A stretch of 64,000 nt of DNA, from positions 1 to 64,000 of the IMG/VR virus record IMGVR_UViG_3300017748_000005. One strand, given 5' to 3'. Below, one piece after another: positions 12,625 to 62,004 of this stretch. This DNA comes from a virus. The notes below the pieces were generated by a model that searched no databases, was not told where the DNA came from, and saw only the letters and a list, made by a program, of their open reading frames with translations. The stretch's first letter is position 1, and every line of letters begins with the position of its first letter. A program made the translations under genes and the position numbers.

Positions 12625-13563
12625 TCATAGATATTCTGCGATTTGACTGCCATTTTCACGCAGACTTCTTAATGCCTTGTGTTCAAGAGTTCGCACGCGA
12701 TCACGACTCATATTGAGTACCTGCCCAATCGCGGTCATAGATAGTGGCTCCAAAATCTCATCACCAATTCCATAACGCATGCTAATTACTTCTGCTTGCA
12801 ATCTAGGCAGCATCGTAATTTCATTTCGAATATCTTCTTTAATGCACGCTGCTTCTAAGTTAATGTCTGGAGTCTGATCTTCATCTTCCAGCATGTCCAC
12901 AAGCGCTGTGTCGTGGTTCTCTCCAATCTTGATTTCTAAAGATGTTGGTTGACGAGCCTTGCACATCAAGTCTTTGACCTCATCTTGTGTCATGTTTAAC
13001 TCTTCGGCCAGTTCAGCTACGGTTGGTAAATATCCATTGAGCTGACTCAATTCACGCTGGGCTTTCTTAAGTTTGTTGAGGTTCTCCGTAACGTGGATTG
13101 GTAGGCGGATCGCTCTACTCTTCTCCGCGATGGCACGAGTGATCCCTTGGCGAATCCACCAATATGCGTAGGTAGAAAACTTATAGCCACGACCAGGATC
13201 AAACTTTTCAACACCACGGATAAGGCCAATTGTTCCCTCTTGAATGATATCCAAAAGTTCCATATTCCGTTTCGTATACTTCTTTGCAACACTAACGACC
13301 AACCGTAAGTTTGCAGTAACCATTTTGTCTTTCGCTCGGGCACCATCACGAAGCTCACGCAATACTTGCCGAACTGGTATATCAAGTGATTCAGCTAAAC
13401 CTGCATTGTCAAGTTCAAGCTCTTTCTTCATTTCGTTCAGTTCAATAAGTCTTTGAACTTTTCGACCAAGCAAAATCTCTTCATCATGAGCAAGCAAGGG
13501 TATCCTGCCAATGTCCTTAAGATAAGCTCTTACTGGATCACTAGTTATTTTTTGTTGGGGCAT
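12625..13563 (-). CDS. Complete host-like sigma-70 factor (RpoD/SigA-like group 1/2)
   Basis: 312 residues with all the core regions of a primary-type sigma factor. Region 1.2 is DPVRAYLKDIGRIPLL. Regions 2.1-2.4 run from LRLVVSVAKKYTKRN through GTIGLIRGVEKFDPGRGYKF to STYAYWWIRQGITRAIAEKS. Region 3 is ENLNKLKKAQRELSQLNG. Region 4.2 is SMTAIGQVLNMSRDRVRTLE. Region 1.1 is absent, as in cyanobacterial group 2 factors. It would recruit host RNA polymerase, probably to late phage promoters, since no phage RNA polymerase is in the window. Its own gene carries a TAGAAT box 24 nt upstream, so it may be autoregulated. It differs from the short T4 gp55-type factor of cyanomyoviruses. Confidence 0.93.
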   Translation of the reverse strand: MPQQKITSDPVRAYLKDIGRIPLLAHDEEILLGRKVQRLIELNEMKKELELDNAGLAESLDIPVRQVLRELRDGARAKDKMVTANLRLVVSVAKKYTKRNMELLDIIQEGTIGLIRGVEKFDPGRGYKFSTYAYWWIRQGITRAIAEKSRAIRLPIHVTENLNKLKKAQRELSQLNGYLPTVAELAEELNMTQDEVKDLMCKARQPTSLEIKIGENHDTALVDMLEDEDQTPDINLEAACIKEDIRNEITMLPRLQAEVISMRYGIGDEILEPLSMTAIGQVLNMSRDRVRTLEHKALRSLRENGSQIAEYL

Positions 13564-31839: not shown

Positions 31840-32629
31840 AGTTCATAAGCACGGTTGATTCCGTGTTTGACTCCAAATTCTTATGTCTAACTTTAGAAAC
31901 CTCCCGTGTTTCGGACTTTCAGTGGCAGCCTAAGTATGTATTGTTACTTAATAAGTAAACAAATAATATGAAAGGCCCTATAGGAGGTCAAAAGTTTGAA
32001 ATAATATTTTTTACCACATACGTTTATTTTTATGTTCAACTTTTCTGTGTGGGAAACCGTTTAGGGTACTTAAAACGCTATAGAACCTGGAAAATGGTAC
32101 GCCGCGCTGAGTACGTCTAATACCCTTAGTTCCCCGACTGCCGGTGGAACAAAAAAAATAAACTAGCCTGTCGTTGGCCATAACTATTGGTGTTACCTGA
32201 AGTGATAACCTAAGTGATCGCTGTAGTTAACCCAAGCTTGTTATCCAACGACCACCCGACGTTACACAAGTTACTTCTTCTGTTAATCCTTAAGGTTTAA
32301 CCTTCGTTGTTAACAGATGTTAATGATACTTGTGTTCGTACGTCGGGCTCACATCTGTCACAACATAAGAGTTACTTAAGCTCCTCTGCCTTTAGGTTAC
32401 TCGTGTTAACTGTTGTGCAATGTCTTTTATATACCGTGACTGACAGTCACCACAGTGTCCGCGCCAAGGTACTTAGCTCGGTACCCCTGTCGGTATATGT
32501 TTTGTCCACCCCCCTGGTTGCAGTTGCGGGTACTTGTATTGCTCACCCTATCCTTACATTGTTTTAACCTTTCACCCCCAATCAGTCTGCGTATCTATCC
32601 TCCGTCAATCTACTGCGTTCTGTTGTTAC

Positions 32630-32774: not shown

Positions 32775-32790
32775 GCAGGCTAACGCCTGC
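32775..32790 (+). terminator. UAAC-tetraloop hairpin
   Basis: GCAGGC, TAAC loop, GCCTGC. It stands before the first small rightward gene. Confidence 0.7.
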
Positions 32791-32987: not shown

Positions 32988-33007
32988 GGTCCGGTGAACA
33001 CCGGATC
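32988..33007 (+). terminator. Hairpin terminator (GAAC loop)
   Basis: GGTCCGGT, GAAC loop, ACCGGATC, then TTCTTTT. It follows the 52-residue gene. Confidence 0.6.
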
Positions 33008-33036
33008 TTCTTTTAGTGTTCTTTGAATTAACAGCC

Positions 33037-33186
33037 ATGAAAATTCTTGCTGTAAACGATAACGTCACCTACTTCTTAAACGATGATGGTGACTATCGTG
33101 CCTACATCGAATGTACTCAGGAAATCTTTCCTATCGTGCTTGGTCCAATCACTAACGAACTCATTGAGTTTGATTGTCCTTTCTGA
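33037..33186 (+). CDS. Cassette gene, 49-residue protein (hypothetical)
   Basis: Starts MKILAVNDNVTYFLNDDG. Short acidic alpha/beta protein with no motif. ATG 30 nt after the previous hairpin, in the typical cassette layout (hairpin, T-run, AGTGTTC, ATG). Confidence 0.55.
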   Translation: MKILAVNDNVTYFLNDDGDYRAYIECTQEIFPIVLGPITNELIEFDCPF

Positions 33187-33194
33187 ACACACTT

Positions 33195-33216
33195 AAGGCC
33201 GTCTATCGACGGCTTT
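33195..33216 (+). terminator. Hairpin terminator (TATC loop)
   Basis: GGCCGTC, TATC loop, GACGGCT followed by TTCTTCTTT. Confidence 0.65.
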
Positions 33217-33245
33217 CTTCTTTAGTGTTCTTTATATCTTTGACT

Positions 33246-33419
33246 ATGTTTACTTGTCAGTACTGGAATGAGCGTGATGCTCAGTGGAAACCCTGTGGTG
33301 TTTCCTCACCAGACCTCAACGTTGTACGTCAACGTCAGTTTCAAATGATCAAGCAAACGAGAGCCAGTGGTGCTGGCATTCGTTTCAGAGTGATTCACTC
33401 AACTTCAACAGCTGGCTAA
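33246..33419 (+). CDS. Cassette gene, 57-residue basic protein (hypothetical)
   Basis: I chose ATG 33246, in cassette position; a longer frame from 33174 would run back through the terminator and the previous gene. The protein starts MFTCQYWNERDAQWK and is basic (VRQRQFQMIKQTRASGAGIR). Its TAA stop lies in the loop of the following hairpin. Confidence 0.55.
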   Translation: MFTCQYWNERDAQWKPCGVSSPDLNVVRQRQFQMIKQTRASGAGIRFRVIHSTSTAG

Positions 33420-33426
33420 CGCCAGC
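33411..33426 (+). terminator. UAAC hairpin containing a stop codon
   Basis: GCTGGC, TAAC, GCCAGC. The loop TAA (33417-33419) is the stop of the 57-residue gene. Confidence 0.75.
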
Positions 33427-33456
33427 TTTGTAATTAGTAAATTTAATCTAATTACC

Positions 33457-33606
33457 TTGGTAGTTACCTATCACGTCTTCCACGAAGACAAGCAGCAAGC
33501 CACTGAAATGTTCTTCTCAGAACAAGCAGCTATGGCTTACATCAAAACCTTTGAAGACGCACACAAGTACGACTTCTTTGAGGTTGAAGAAGAGCTGCCT
33601 TTTTAA
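33457..33606 (+). CDS. Cassette gene, 49-residue protein with TTG start (hypothetical)
   Basis: No ATG fits; TTG 33457 gives a VVTYHVFHEDKQQATEMFFS beginning and lies in the usual position after the hairpin. An alternative ATG would leave only 32 residues. Acidic, aromatic-rich C-terminus (YDFFEVEEELPF). Confidence 0.45.
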   Translation: MVVTYHVFHEDKQQATEMFFSEQAAMAYIKTFEDAHKYDFFEVEEELPF

Positions 33607-33615
33607 CAGCCATAC

Positions 33616-33637
33616 CCCCGGCTAACGCCGGGGTTTT
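33616..33637 (+). terminator. UAAC-tetraloop terminator
   Basis: CCCCGGC, TAAC, GCCGGGG, TTTT. Confidence 0.85.
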
Positions 33638-33660
33638 CTTTAGTACACTTAAATACAATC

Positions 33661-33789
33661 ATGTTCACTATTACTTACTCTGCTCCTTACTCCGGAGCAG
33701 TACGTACACAATCATTCGCTACTCGTGCAGAAGCACAGCGGATGATTGACTTCTACGCATCATGTGGCACTAAAGCCACATTTGCATGA
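33661..33789 (+). CDS. Cassette gene, 42-residue protein (hypothetical)
   Basis: MFTITYSAPYSGAVRTQSFA, then a short helix (TRAEAQRMIDFYASCGTK). The strand-helix form resembles the 51-residue protein at 42497 (short strands, then TRTEALANLM). Function unknown. Confidence 0.55.
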   Translation: MFTITYSAPYSGAVRTQSFATRAEAQRMIDFYASCGTKATFA

Positions 33790-33792
33790 TCC

Positions 33793-33816
33793 AAGATCTG
33801 GCTAACGCCAGGTCTT
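33793..33816 (+). terminator. UAAC-tetraloop hairpin
   Basis: A 10-bp stem AAGATCTGGC / GCCAGGTCTT with a TAAC loop, then TTCA. Confidence 0.75.
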
Positions 33817-33839
33817 TTCATAGTAACTTTATTAATACT

Positions 33840-34028
33840 ATGACTTATTCAAATCCTTACGTTCAACAAATCTGCGACCAAGAAGGTTGCACTCGTTGGG
33901 ACGTTAGCGCAAACATGCGCAACTCAACACCTAAGAAACGTGAGTTTCCACTTACGATTCACGGTGTGACTTTCCATACGAAGAAAGAGTATGAGAATGC
34001 TCTCCATGAATTCTTAAATGGTAATTAA
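33840..34028 (+). CDS. Cassette gene, 62-residue protein (hypothetical)
   Basis: I chose ATG 33840; the frame upstream runs through the terminator. MTYSNPYVQQICDQEGCTRW with a CxxxxC pair, then a basic stretch (NSTPKKREFPLTIHGVTFHT). Possibly a small zinc or nucleic-acid-binding protein, unproven. It is followed within two bases by a 21-residue membrane peptide gene. Confidence 0.55.
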   Translation: MTYSNPYVQQICDQEGCTRWDVSANMRNSTPKKREFPLTIHGVTFHTKKEYENALHEFLNGN

Positions 34029-34029
34029 G

Positions 34030-34095
34030 ATGCCTGGATTCTTCGTCTCACTAATCCTTTTTAGTTTAGTTCTCGTTATTATCTTATTGAAATAA
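34030..34095 (+). CDS. 21-residue hydrophobic micropeptide
   Basis: Sequence MPGFFVSLILFSLVLVIILLK: one transmembrane helix filling the whole peptide. It starts one base after the stop of the upstream gene, which suggests coupled translation. Could be a membrane stress or lysis peptide, or a chance ORF. Confidence 0.4.
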   Translation: MPGFFVSLILFSLVLVIILLK

Positions 34096-34101
34096 CAACA
34101 T

Positions 34102-34119
34102 AACAGGCTAACGCCTGTT
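34102..34119 (+). terminator. UAAC-tetraloop hairpin
   Basis: AACAGGC, TAAC, GCCTGTT; weak T-run. Confidence 0.7.
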
Positions 34120-34150
34120 GTGTATTTCATTGCTTATATAAATATTATCA

Positions 34151-34384
34151 ATGACTACTCTTGAACGCGAAGAACTCCGCGAACTTTATCCATTCATCCC
34201 AGGTCAATGTCGAATCTGGTGTCGCTCCCGTCAGGGTGACGATCGCTACTGGTTCCACATGACCTATCCCGCTAGTGGTCACCACGATTGTCTCAAGCGT
34301 GTGGCTCACTATCAAGAAGAATGGGCAAACTTCTACGAGTACCGGATTACAGCGGACTTTGACCTCTGTAATCCACTGGTCTGA
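34151..34384 (+). CDS. Cassette gene, 77-residue protein (hypothetical)
   Basis: Charged, aromatic-rich. TTLEREELRELYPFIPGQCR is followed by a WFHMTYPASGHHDCLKRVAH segment with His and Cys residues. No family known. Its stop overlaps the next start (TGATG), so the pair is coupled. Confidence 0.6.
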   Translation: MTTLEREELRELYPFIPGQCRIWCRSRQGDDRYWFHMTYPASGHHDCLKRVAHYQEEWANFYEYRITADFDLCNPLV

Positions 34385-34575
34385 TGTTGAACAGTAAAGC
34401 TCATTATGTCTCACTGTTCGCCGATATCCTCGGTGAAGCAAGTGATGACGACTGTGAAAACCATGAAATGCTTATTGAAGCGTTTCAAGAAGCGATTGAT
34501 ACTTGGCTGACATATCATTCAGCCTCCGTACAGCGCTTCAAAGAACTCAAGACAATGTCTGACAACATTGTCTAA
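34384..34575 (+). CDS. Cassette gene, 63-residue acidic helical protein (hypothetical)
   Basis: MLNSKAHYVSLFADILGEAS, a DDDCENHEML acidic patch, then a helical part to the C-terminus. Overlaps the previous stop by one base. Function unknown. Confidence 0.55.
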   Translation: MLNSKAHYVSLFADILGEASDDDCENHEMLIEAFQEAIDTWLTYHSASVQRFKELKTMSDNIV

Positions 34576-34580
34576 ACCTT

Positions 34581-34608
34581 GGGGCTGGCTTACACCAGTC
34601 CCTTTTTT
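34581..34608 (+). terminator. Hairpin terminator (CTTACA loop)
   Basis: GGGGCTGG, CTTACA loop, CCAGTCCC, TTTTTT: a canonical intrinsic terminator without the TAAC loop. Confidence 0.85.
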
Positions 34609-34628
34609 AAATCTTCTCGCACTATCTG

Positions 34629-34820
34629 ATGGACGACATCATCTATCGACTTCAAAGTGTTTACAAAAATGGGGACACAGTTGTGAACTACGTTTCTGCA
34701 ACTGATGTTCAGAAAGCTATAGACAAAGTCTTAGCTTATGACCCCAAGATCATTCGAGTTACCGAGGCTTTGCCCTCAGGTCTCGAAATCAAATCACTAA
34801 ACAACAATTCAACAGGCTAA
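34629..34820 (+). CDS. Cassette gene, 63-residue protein (hypothetical)
   Basis: MDDIIYRLQSVYKNGDTVVN, then a helix ATDVQKAIDKVLAYDPKIIR and a terminal strand. The stop TAA is in the loop of the following hairpin. The beta-alpha-beta form could be a small single-domain fold. Confidence 0.55.
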   Translation: MDDIIYRLQSVYKNGDTVVNYVSATDVQKAIDKVLAYDPKIIRVTEALPSGLEIKSLNNNSTG

Positions 34821-34828
34821 CGCCTGTT
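34811..34828 (+). terminator. UAAC hairpin containing a stop codon
   Basis: AACAGGC, TAAC, GCCTGTT; TAA 34818-34820 is the stop of the preceding gene. Confidence 0.75.
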
Positions 34829-34842
34829 CTTTGTTCATTGTT

Positions 34843-35010
34843 ATGTCTAATTCAATGAACAACCTCACTTCCATCTCCGATGCCCTCGTCGAGATCGAAA
34901 TCCTCTCGTGGCTTGAGGAACAAGCAGCTCGTGTCGCTTTCGACAACGAAGCTTGGCTTCAAGAACAAGATGAAGAGTTCACCGAGTCCTTCACATCACG
35001 CTTTAGCTGA
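34843..35010 (+). CDS. Cassette gene, 55-residue acidic helical protein (hypothetical)
   Basis: MSNSMNNLTSISDALVEIEI followed by an amphipathic acidic helix with many Glu and Gln. Its TGA overlaps the next ATG by one base. Function unknown. Confidence 0.55.
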   Translation: MSNSMNNLTSISDALVEIEILSWLEEQAARVAFDNEAWLQEQDEEFTESFTSRFS

Positions 35011-35237
35011 TGTTAAGGCTCGTAATCCAACAGAAGCGTGCTCCTAATACACGCTTCCACGTCAAGTTCGAAGGCATGTGGGCAGCTTTCAATACCTTCC
35101 CTGAAGTCATTGACTGGCTGCATTCCCTTGAACTGGACGAACTAGTTCCTTACACTGATCTGAGTGAAGACGATCTGTCTGTACTCATTGATCAGCAGTA
35201 TCTGGAACTAACTAAACACCTAAGAGTTGCAGGCTAA
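35010..35237 (+). CDS. Cassette gene, 75-residue protein (hypothetical)
   Basis: LRLVIQQKRAPNTRFHVKFE, then FEGMWAAFNTFPEVIDWLHS and an acidic helical end. Translationally coupled to the gene before; its stop is the TAA in the hairpin loop after it. Confidence 0.55.
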   Translation: MLRLVIQQKRAPNTRFHVKFEGMWAAFNTFPEVIDWLHSLELDELVPYTDLSEDDLSVLIDQQYLELTKHLRVAG

Positions 35238-35248
35238 CGCCTGCTTTT
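35229..35248 (+). terminator. UAAC terminator containing a stop codon
   Basis: GCAGGC, TAAC, GCCTGC, TTTT; TAA 35235-35237 ends the previous gene. Confidence 0.85.
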
Positions 35249-35276
35249 CTCTTATTGTCCTATTGCATTTCAAACT

Positions 35277-35510
35277 ATGCGCTTTCGCTTCCCTGGCACT
35301 GACGTTCACGTCCGTCTTTTCGAGAAAGTCGAAACCTCCGATAAACAGTACGAAATCGTCGAATGCGGCGTTGAGTACAAAAACGGCGGTGTAGACAGCC
35401 TTGTTACAGGCGGTAGTTTCTACTCCGCTAAGCAAGCAATCAAGAAAATCAACGCTGTTTCTGATCAGAAATCAGCTGAAAAAGCTATTGAAGAGCCCGT
35501 AGCGGCTTGA
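35277..35510 (+). CDS. Cassette gene, 77-residue protein (hypothetical)
   Basis: RFRFPGTDVHVRLFEKVETS with alternating strands, then a Lys/Ala-rich helical C-terminus. It ends against the stop of the converging leftward gene. Function unknown. Confidence 0.55.
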   Translation: MRFRFPGTDVHVRLFEKVETSDKQYEIVECGVEYKNGGVDSLVTGGSFYSAKQAIKKINAVSDQKSAEKAIEEPVAA

Positions 35511-35900
35511 TCAATAGCGAATCATCAGACCGGGGCTAACGCCCTGGTCTTTTTCTTTTGCTTCAACCAAACCAAGCTCCTCAAGCAGGCTTTGTGTGCC
35601 ATCAGCTGCTGCTAAACCAGCACCTACGCCACCTGCTAATGCACCAGCCTGCAAAGCACGAGCAGCCAAGAGAGTTGCTATGTCCTCTGTCACCCCAGGT
35701 GATGAGGCTTTGTAGTAACTCTCAGGTGCCATCCTATTGGGCCTAAAGACAGTTTGCCCTAAGAGAGTGCGAACGTTCTCTTTCTCAGGCACAACATTAT
35801 CTTGCAAATACAATATCTTTTCACGGATTGCTTTCTGTACAGCATTGTCAGCCATAGCCACGGCTTCCATAGCTTTACGCAATCTATCCTTTCCACCCAT
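35511..35900 (-). CDS. Leftward virion-like protein inside the rightward module
   Basis: 129 residues from the ATG at 35898-35900. A charged N-terminal helix (MGGKDRLRKAMEAVAMADNA) and an Ala/Gly hydrophobic segment (ATLLAARALQAGALAGGVGAGL) resemble the ejection-cluster proteins. A TATTAT box lies 26 nt upstream. Its last codons overlap the plus-strand hairpin at 35527-35550. Confidence 0.55.
   Translation of the reverse strand: MGGKDRLRKAMEAVAMADNAVQKAIREKILYLQDNVVPEKENVRTLLGQTVFRPNRMAPESYYKASSPGVTEDIATLLAARALQAGALAGGVGAGLAAADGTQSLLEELGLVEAKEKDQGVSPGLMIRY
35527..35556 (+). terminator. UAAC-tetraloop terminator within an opposing gene
   Basis: A 10-bp stem AGACCGGGGC / GCCCTGGTCT with a TAAC loop and a T-run on the plus strand; it lies in the 3' end of the leftward gene. 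Confidence 0.8.
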
Positions 35901-35943
35901 AACAACTGAGCAATACAATACTTACATAATATCAACAGCCTGT

Positions 35944-35970
35944 CCACTGGTTAACACCAGTGGTTTTTTT
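35944..35970 (+). terminator. UAAC-tetraloop terminator
   Basis: CCACTGGT, TAAC, ACCAGTGG, TTTTTTT. Confidence 0.85.
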
Positions 35971-35977
35971 AGTACTT

Positions 35978-36148
35978 ATGAAAAACAACATGATCTGGGC
36001 TGTCTACGACGTCAACCATGCCGAAGTTGTCGGCATATGGAATGATATATGCGATGCAGAAGAGTTTCTTGAAGAAAATGAATCATCTTCCGATGTATGG
36101 GCAGTGATGCCCGCAGATGAACTTTGCTGTGATCTAGCAACCTTATGA
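35978..36148 (+). CDS. Cassette gene, 56-residue acidic protein (hypothetical)
   Basis: I chose ATG 35978, just after the hairpin and AGTACTT; frame 35960 starts in the T-run. KNNMIWAVYDVNHAEVVGIW is followed by an acidic helix (DAEEFLEENESSSDVW). Four-base overlap (ATGA) with the next gene. Confidence 0.55.
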   Translation: MKNNMIWAVYDVNHAEVVGIWNDICDAEEFLEENESSSDVWAVMPADELCCDLATL

Positions 36149-36228
36149 GTATGGCCTACAAAAAAGATCCAGTTACTGGACGTCTCGTCCGTATTTTCCC
36201 TGAATCTAAACAGCCAGTCACAGGTTAA
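36145..36228 (+). CDS. 27-residue peptide gene
   Basis: MSMAYKKDPVTGRLVRIFPE and seven more residues, basic. It starts inside the previous gene's stop (ATGA) and ends with the TAA in the hairpin loop. Very short, but the coupling and shared stop-in-loop layout support it. Confidence 0.4.
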   Translation: MSMAYKKDPVTGRLVRIFPESKQPVTG

Positions 36229-36243
36229 CACCTGTGCTTTTTT
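36219..36243 (+). terminator. UAAC terminator containing a stop codon
   Basis: CACAGGT, TAAC, ACCTGTG, CTTTTTT; TAA 36226-36228 ends the 27-codon gene. Confidence 0.8.
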
Positions 36244-36481: not shown

Positions 36482-36489
36482 AGTTCAAT

Positions 36490-36516
36490 CACAGGATAAC
36501 TCCTGTGGTTTCTTTA
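36490..36516 (+). terminator. UAAC-tetraloop hairpin
   Basis: CACAGGA, TAAC, TCCTGTG, then GTTTCTTT. Confidence 0.75.
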
Positions 36517-36902: not shown

Positions 36903-36910
36903 CAACCATG

Positions 36911-36938
36911 AGCAGGCTAACGCCTGCTCTTTATTTTT
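36911..36938 (+). terminator. UAAC-tetraloop hairpin
   Basis: AGCAGGC, TAAC, GCCTGCT, then CTTTATTTTT. Confidence 0.8.
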
Positions 36939-37413: not shown

Positions 37414-37420
37414 TCTCTCT

Positions 37421-37448
37421 GGTTCTTCCTAACGGAAGAACCGTTTTT
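37421..37448 (+). terminator. UAAC-tetraloop terminator
   Basis: A perfect 9-bp stem GGTTCTTCC / GGAAGAACC with a TAAC loop, then GTTTTT. Confidence 0.9.
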
Positions 37449-37727: not shown

Positions 37728-37749
37728 GATACTCTCTAACGAGAGTATC
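37728..37749. terminator. UAAC hairpin between convergent genes
   Basis: A perfect stem GATACTCTC / GAGAGTATC with a TAAC loop; no T-run. Confidence 0.6.
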
Positions 37750-43233: not shown

Positions 43234-43258
43234 AACCGGCTAACGCCGGTTCTTTCTT
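43234..43258 (+). terminator. UAAC-tetraloop hairpin
   Basis: AACCGGC, TAAC, GCCGGTT, then CTTTC. Confidence 0.75.
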
Positions 43259-52153: not shown

Positions 52154-52174
52154 GACCAAACAAGACATCATTCA

Positions 52175-52199
52175 AAGCTGGTTAACACCAGCTTTTTTA
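52175..52199 (+). terminator. UAAC-tetraloop terminator
   Basis: AAGCTGGT, TAAC, ACCAGCTT, TTTTA; ends the hli transcript. Confidence 0.85.
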
Positions 52200-52225
52200 T
52201 TAGTGTTCAATATTTACTGAAGATC

Positions 52226-52408: not shown

Positions 52409-52415
52409 ACCCAAG

Positions 52416-52440
52416 CAACAGGCTAACGCCTGTTGTTTTT
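52416..52440 (+). terminator. UAAC-tetraloop terminator
   Basis: CAACAGGC, TAAC, GCCTGTTG, TTTTT. Confidence 0.85.
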
Positions 52441-58443: not shown

Positions 58444-59004
58444 ATGGGCGTACATAAAGGGGATCCTACACATCTTGAGAATCCTGATAAATATTTTATG
58501 AATATAGCCAAAGCTGTGCAGGAAGGATCTAATCACCCGATAGCACCAGGAGGCTGCGTGATCACTAGAGGAAGAGAGCTTATAGCTGACGGACGTTCAG
58601 TCCTAGCAGCATGCCGTGTAGAAGTTGATTGCATTACTTATGCGATAGCTTCAGCTGCAAAGTTTGGAACTTCTTTAGGTGGTTGCGTTATTTATTCAAC
58701 CCGTTATCCGTTTAGTGCTGCTATATTTCAATTACATCTTATGGGTGTCCGTAAGATGATTGTGTTGGCGCATGAGTGGGAACCGTACTACAAAGACGAA
58801 TTCCGCCGTGCATCACGATTAGCTCGCGAACTAAACATATCTATTGAACCATTATTTGAAAATGAAGACGAACGTTTCACAACAAACGATCAAGCCCCCC
58901 GTTTCGGAGCTGCCAGTCAAGCAGAAGAAGAGTTCCAAGACAAAGACCTCTACACGACAAGTCCGGTTGAACAAAGCGATTCAAACATATCAATTGATAA
59001 ATAA
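58444..59004 (+). CDS. Deoxycytidylate-deaminase-fold protein lacking zinc ligands
   Basis: 186 residues. The fold order follows cytidine/dCMP deaminases: HPIAPGGCVITRGRELIADG for the first strands, then CRVEVDCITYAIASAAKFGT in place of the HAE helix, VIYSTRYPFSAAIFQLHLMG in place of PCxxC, and VRKMIVLAHEWEPYY at the end. The zinc-binding His and both Cys are missing, so deaminase activity is unlikely. It could be a regulator of the nucleotide pathway or a scaffold. Its long C-terminus is acidic. Confidence 0.65.
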   Translation: MGVHKGDPTHLENPDKYFMNIAKAVQEGSNHPIAPGGCVITRGRELIADGRSVLAACRVEVDCITYAIASAAKFGTSLGGCVIYSTRYPFSAAIFQLHLMGVRKMIVLAHEWEPYYKDEFRRASRLARELNISIEPLFENEDERFTTNDQAPRFGAASQAEEEFQDKDLYTTSPVEQSDSNISIDK

Positions 59005-61834: not shown

Positions 61835-61980
61835 AAACTAAATACACCTGCAAGTACAAAGACGGAACTGTCGTGAAAGACTTGTCTTATGACGACAGTT
61901 ATTCTTTGTTTCAAGAAGCACTAGGTACAAGCAACACTTGCTCCGTGTACCCAATGAACACAAACTACAACAGATCATAA
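61822..61980 (+). CDS. 52-residue protein, TTG start (hypothetical)
   Basis: TTG 61822, overlapping the peptide gene by 13 bases. PLKTKYTCKYKDGTVVKDLS with two beta strands, then a helix. Its TAA is the last codon before the UAAC hairpin stem. Start uncertain. Confidence 0.4.
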   Translation: MLPLKTKYTCKYKDGTVVKDLSYDDSYSLFQEALGTSNTCSVYPMNTNYNRS

Positions 61981-62004
61981 GCAGGCTAACGCCTGCTTTT
62001 TTTA
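61979..62004 (+). terminator. UAAC-tetraloop terminator
   Basis: AAGCAGGC, TAAC, GCCTGCTT, TTTTT. Confidence 0.9.

Follow-up and report, generated by a model that had tools for sequence, protein, structure and literature searches.

Four small genes of an uncultured cyanophage end on the UAA of a UAAC tetraloop, within the terminator-type hairpin that follows each of them. The stretch analysed here, 64,000 nucleotides long and referred to as the window, comes from a viral record of 69,518 bases, of which it covers positions 1-64000. We propose that the loop stop is probably a tolerated, space-saving fallback at a terminator and not a dedicated coupling device. Supporting observations are that the stop enters and leaves the loop between orthologues, that it takes up one of two positions, and that every supported gene entering an array hairpin does so in the frame of the loop.

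The hairpin array and its loop-stop genes

The source of the window is distant kin of Synechococcus phage S-EIV1, the closest annotated phage by terminase (54.6% identity over 97%), but the S-EIV1 genome has no UAAC hairpin array. The gene content includes a psbA fragment, thyX, a VapE-like domain protein and a phage-encoded sigma-70 family factor (12625-13563, - strand) with regions 1.2, 2, 3 and 4 present. The closest relative, the IMG/VR contig L009, shares the cassette region at 57-94% protein identity. L030 (NYTN01000033.1) is syntenic with the window and more distant than L009; it was filed under a Rhodobiaceae MAG and is probably misbinned there, because the GGCTAACGCC array in that assembly is confined to L030, one lone match aside. 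An array of the same kind is present in the viral contigs L032-L037, which are more distant still. A CAGGCTAACGCCTGNTTTT scan gave matches in four contigs only, indicating that the motif is clade-limited. The array is absent from the searched parts of the T4-like cyanophage genomes S-TIM5 and Syn30, and a search through the SSB-like gene found no further relatives. L010, which matched the hairpin pattern, was rejected as unrelated upon inspection of its sequence.

Cassettes are shuffled between relatives: the order of g3 and g4 is reversed between the window (33246-33606) and L009 (4117-4500), and no orthologues of g2 and g5 were found in L009. Ahead of the array lies a long stretch with no evident gene in which GTTACCTGAAGTGATAAC-like words are repeated (window 32200-32420; L009 3060-3250).

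All four stops coincide with the in-frame UAA of a UAAC tetraloop, exactly as the first-pass annotation had claimed, and the hairpins of g3, g9, g11 and g14 are GC-rich and U-tailed (Table 1). In comparison with L009 the dN/dS is about 0.18 for g3, 0.21 for g9 and 0.17 for g11, and in a conserved 12-codon block of g14 all seven codon differences are synonymous; the four thus look like real genes evolving as coding sequence. None of their proteins was assigned to a family by searches of PHROGs and Pfam.

On the + strand between 32 and 64 kb there are 25 hairpins, 20 of them with a UAAC loop, for which order-1 simulations expect 1.1 and 0.00, respectively. The over-representation begins at 32.7 kb, and the - strand of the same interval has zero TAAC hairpins. 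Stems consist of 6-11 pairs, 4-7 of them G-C, with a fold energy of -10 to -17 kcal/mol (38-nt pieces), and nearly all UAAC hairpins are followed immediately by a U-tract (T at 4-7 of the first 8 positions). A stable GC-rich stem-loop, a U-tract and a strand-specific position after genes are the features of intrinsic terminators, which suggests that the array hairpins are intrinsic-terminator-type 3' ends; termination itself is predicted. The loop is typical of the clade, being TAAC in the window, L009 and L030; TATC, TATT, AATC and TAAC in L032-L034 and L037; and TAAT, TTAC and some TAAC in L035 and L036. Its sequence is retained whether it serves as a stop or not and is independent of stop use, as in one orthologous hairpin that varies between TAAC, AAAC and TAGC with its gene stopping at -22.

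The four loop-stop cases are a minority among the UAAC hairpins of the window. At most of the others the stop precedes the loop by 9-40 nt, and a few lack a gene ahead of them; two without a preceding + strand gene (32775-32790 and 35944-35963) are found at the same place in L009. A 21-codon hydrophobic ORF (MPGFFVSLILFSLVLVIILLK, window 34029-34093), its TAA 18 nt before a loop, was not seen at the corresponding place in L009. About a dozen cassettes carry an outer inverted repeat, TGAACAC 5' of the hairpin, in which TGA is the stop, and GTGTTC 3' of it (window 33184-33225; G008 at 400, 634, 862, 1092 and 1377). As a general hairpin feature the GAACAC/GTGTTC repeat was rejected, since it is not significant overall (p 0.25, 0.025 and 0.94 by clade).

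Table 1. Loop-stop genes, their hairpins and other array hairpins of the window (stop offsets in nt relative to the loop)
Feature	Position	Strand	Description
g3	33246..33419	+	57 aa, ends ...STAG*; TAA stop 33417-33419 in tetraloop
g3 hairpin	33410..33427	+	AGCTGGC[TAAC]GCCAGCT, T-rich tail
g9	34629..34820	+	63 aa, ends ...NSTG*; loop stop 34818
g9 hairpin	34811..34828	+	AACAGGC[TAAC]GCCTGTT
g11	35010..35237	+	75 aa, ends ...RVAG*; loop stop 35235
g11 hairpin	35229..35244	+	GCAGGC[TAAC]GCCTGC
g14	36145..36228	+	27 aa, ends ...PVTG*; overlaps g13 stop; loop stop 36226
g14 hairpin	36219..36236	+	CACAGGT[TAAC]ACCTGTG
GAAC-loop hairpin after g1	32988..33007	+	g1 TAA stop 32978, offset -18
TATC-loop hairpin after g2	33195..33216	+	g2 TGA at -20; TGAACAC / GTGTTC flanks
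Hairpin after g4	33616..33633	+	CCCCGGC[TAAC]GCCGGGG; stop at -19
TAAC hairpin after g5	33793..33816	+	stop at -16
TAAC hairpin	34098..34123	+	L009 stem identical
TAAC hairpin after g12	35527..35550	+	stop at -29; inside convergent - strand gene 35511-35900
TAAC hairpin	35944..35963	+	no + strand gene preceding
TAAC hairpin after g15	36487..36510	+	stop at -18
TAAC hairpin after g16	36910..36929	+	stop at -18
TAAC hairpin after g17	37420..37443	+	stop at -19
TAAC hairpin after g18	37728..37749	+	stop at -40
TAAC hairpin	43234..43251	+	stop at -12
TAAC hairpin	52174..52195	+	stop at -32
TAAC hairpin	52413..52438	+	stop at -18
TAAC hairpin	61979..61998	+	stop about -9

Movement of stops into and out of the loop

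Candidate upstream genes were scored by codon usage at every hairpin in eight sequences. Among the 87 hairpins with a supported gene, the stop lies 5' of the stem in 78 and begins at the first loop base in 8, and the gap from stop to stem peaks at 6-8 nt (41 of the 78). Addition of cases supported by orthologues (g3, and g11 and g14 of L009) brings the loop stops to 11; with further orthologues they represent eight gene families and about 10-15% of hairpins.

Comparison of orthologues reveals repeated gain and loss of the loop stop, and two of the four loop stops of the window are absent in L009, g11 and g14 alone being shared. The TAA of g1, at -18 in the window, is CAA in L009, where the gene extends six codons to the loop TAA. 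In g3 the loop stop of the window is replaced in L030 by a TGA 17 nt before the hairpin, and L009 has no hairpin there; g9 of L009 is followed by the same loop but stops at a TAA 21 nt ahead of it. Gene g7 has a loop stop in L030 and a TGA at -18 in clade B, and the loop stop that g11 has in the window and L009 gives way in L030 and G011 to TGA or TAA before the hairpin. For g14 the closing pair of the hairpin has changed on both sides, from T-A to G-C, in a compensatory manner (CACAGGG[TAAC]CCCTGTG in L009), and the loop stop is kept. A small basic gene ends in the loop in L009 and likewise in the distantly related G011 phage, at 74% identity and with stems that differ, and a clade-B gene uses a loop TAG in G008 and G006, a loop TAA in L033 and a TAA at -15 in G011. 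Since g14, the small basic gene and the clade-B gene keep their loop stops, some loop stops persist long enough for a possible positive role.

The first-pass annotation had proposed that ribosomes reaching the loop stop melt the stem, so that translation and termination are coupled, and that loops staying in relatives as stops drift away freely would speak against this. Among relatives the loops do stay and the stops do move, but the drift is not free, the stop shifting between two places only, upstream of the stem and precisely within the loop. The position of the stop relative to the hairpin, which a coupled terminator would conserve, is thus not conserved. Under coupling, well-translated messages would read through into the next cassette and untranslated ones would terminate. 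The 3' arm is covered by a ribosome that has reached the loop. When the stop was moved to 5 nt before the tR2 hairpin in E. coli, termination fell from about 90% to less than 10%, and the hairpin can fold fully when 10-15 nt of RNA between it and the A site are free (PMC4824070). Retention of the loop stop in a relative for g14, g11 and the small basic gene is consistent with such a role as well. However, the stop leaves the loop between orthologues of g1, g3, g7, g9 and g11, few hairpins carry a loop stop at all, and the other stops, mostly 6-8 nt from the stem, are already within reach of the ribosome, so that the loop position would not be needed. By the E. coli measure most cassettes, not the loop-stop ones alone, would lie within the reach of a terminating ribosome, and since a stop about 5 nt from the hairpin represses termination there, tight coupling is predicted to weaken the phage terminators. 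Dedicated coupling is therefore not supported, and we regard it as improbable.

An alternative, to which we likewise assign a low probability, is that the hairpins are processing or 3'-stabilising elements of long polycistronic messages, the loop stop barring ribosomes from crossing them. The hairpins recur on one strand every 200-400 nt and lie 20-60 nt from the next start, leaving scant room for a full promoter, which favours this reading. On the other hand, nearly all stems have T-rich tails, and a TGTTCTTTATAT-like sequence following many hairpins just before the ATG could be a promoter. This sequence recurs 10-20 nt before the next ATG (window 33008-33240 and 52190-52220; arrays of G008 and G010) and is possibly a promoter or leader; in two sister phages, TGTTCTT occurs within 40 nt of a hairpin in 6 of 10-12 cases.

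As to the packing of the genes, one element does provide stop, U-tailed hairpin and spacing, as had been suggested: the distance from stop to next start in the window is 22-40 nt in loop-stop cassettes versus 50-64 nt in the majority of cassettes whose stop precedes the hairpin. The saving (about 15-20 nt) is real but small, and the loop-stop genes, g14 excepted, are no smaller than their neighbours.

Frame bias and a proposed fallback stop

Across the 87 hairpins, no supported gene continues past one that belongs to the array, though two of the three frames would permit it; the hairpin at 58745, which lies within a large gene, differs in type from those of the array, and a weakly coding L030 ORF (4657-4914) that runs through a hairpin is a possible exception. 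All eight families that enter the hairpin use the frame of the loop, for which the chance is about 1.5e-4 at one third each. Genes enter the hairpin in 0 of 30 cases with a stop-less loop versus 8-11 of 56-59 with a loop that contains a stop triplet (Fisher p 0.046 and 0.014). Of 48 genes with their stop ahead of the hairpin, 16, exactly one third, have the loop TAA in frame; there is thus no sign of selection of the loop UAA as an in-frame backup stop, and this idea was rejected. Pure coincidence, in which a gene enters the hairpin with its frame unconstrained and stops at the first UAA, would fit this one third and the presence of UAAC in nearly every loop of the phage, one frame in three yielding a loop stop for free, but it is quite unlikely given that supported entrants are without exception in the loop frame.

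We propose that the tolerated fallback stop arises as follows. In the array, a terminator-type hairpin made up of a GC stem, the tetraloop typical of the clade and a U-tract would follow every small gene or pair of genes. The use of UAAC as the loop would have to do with the RNA or the terminator and not with translation, and its UAA would be the sole stop of the element. If a gene shares the frame of the loop (one in three) and loses its upstream stop to a point mutation, it would continue to the loop UAA and gain about 5-6 stem-derived codons, ending in -TG, -AG or -AA. The new stop would still lie within the terminated mRNA, and would therefore be tolerated, with 15-20 nt saved; in an mRNA that ends at the hairpin, no stop beyond the loop UAA would be usable. 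If the stop were lost in either of the remaining frames, the result would be a non-stop mRNA or a fusion, and such forms are presumably purged. We infer from the sequences that messages end at the U-tract, and the frame bias would then be expected because such a message has no stop in the other frames. The hairpin would have to fold under RNA polymerase before the ribosome arrives, so that transcription is probably ahead of translation; a polymerase running ahead is favoured over regulated coupling. A tentative and rather doubtful extension is that stop-bearing loops are kept in part since they rescue genes after loss of the upstream stop.

Comparison with known terminators and significance

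Terminators overlapping gene ends are an already known arrangement, on which the UAAC loop stops of the phage are a variation. The hairpins resemble E. coli intrinsic terminators of the tR2 type in their GC stem, U-tract and very short distance from stop to hairpin (PMC4824070), and some known intrinsic terminators overlap the upstream gene. In contrast to the E. coli terminators, the stop of the phage genes lies exactly in a conserved UAAC tetraloop that recurs across a tandem array of tiny genes, and termination is predicted. In B. subtilis, according to a 2020 study cited in PMC7858274, terminators lie only a few nt past the stop, within reach of the terminating ribosome, and such short distances accompany an RNA polymerase that outruns the ribosomes (PMC7858274); the present case, by comparison, is a cyanobacterial phage and places some stops inside the hairpin itself. 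Transcripts of Synechocystis end at a long distance from the coding sequence (median 91 nt) (PMC12207403), a pattern from which the phage layout differs. A fixed motif also recurs in the terminators of one genome, for reasons unrelated to the genes, in the DNA-uptake-sequence hairpins of Neisseria and Pasteurellaceae (PMC1852404), whereas in the phage the loop alone is constant among variable stems, and we do not suggest a role in uptake.

The array offers a natural series of stops on similar terminators, some placed inside the loop, some 6-8 nt short of the stem and some at a greater distance. Such a series would allow measurement of how near a stop can get before ribosomes spoil termination, and could show if, in infected cyanobacteria, RNA polymerase moves ahead of the ribosomes. 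Evidence for messages ending at the hairpins, drawn from sequence only, comes from the frame bias, and the orthologues show very small phage genes acquiring C-terminal codons from their own terminators. If loops are indeed kept partly for rescue, cassettes could be shuffled onto any in-frame terminator and would still end inside their own mRNA.
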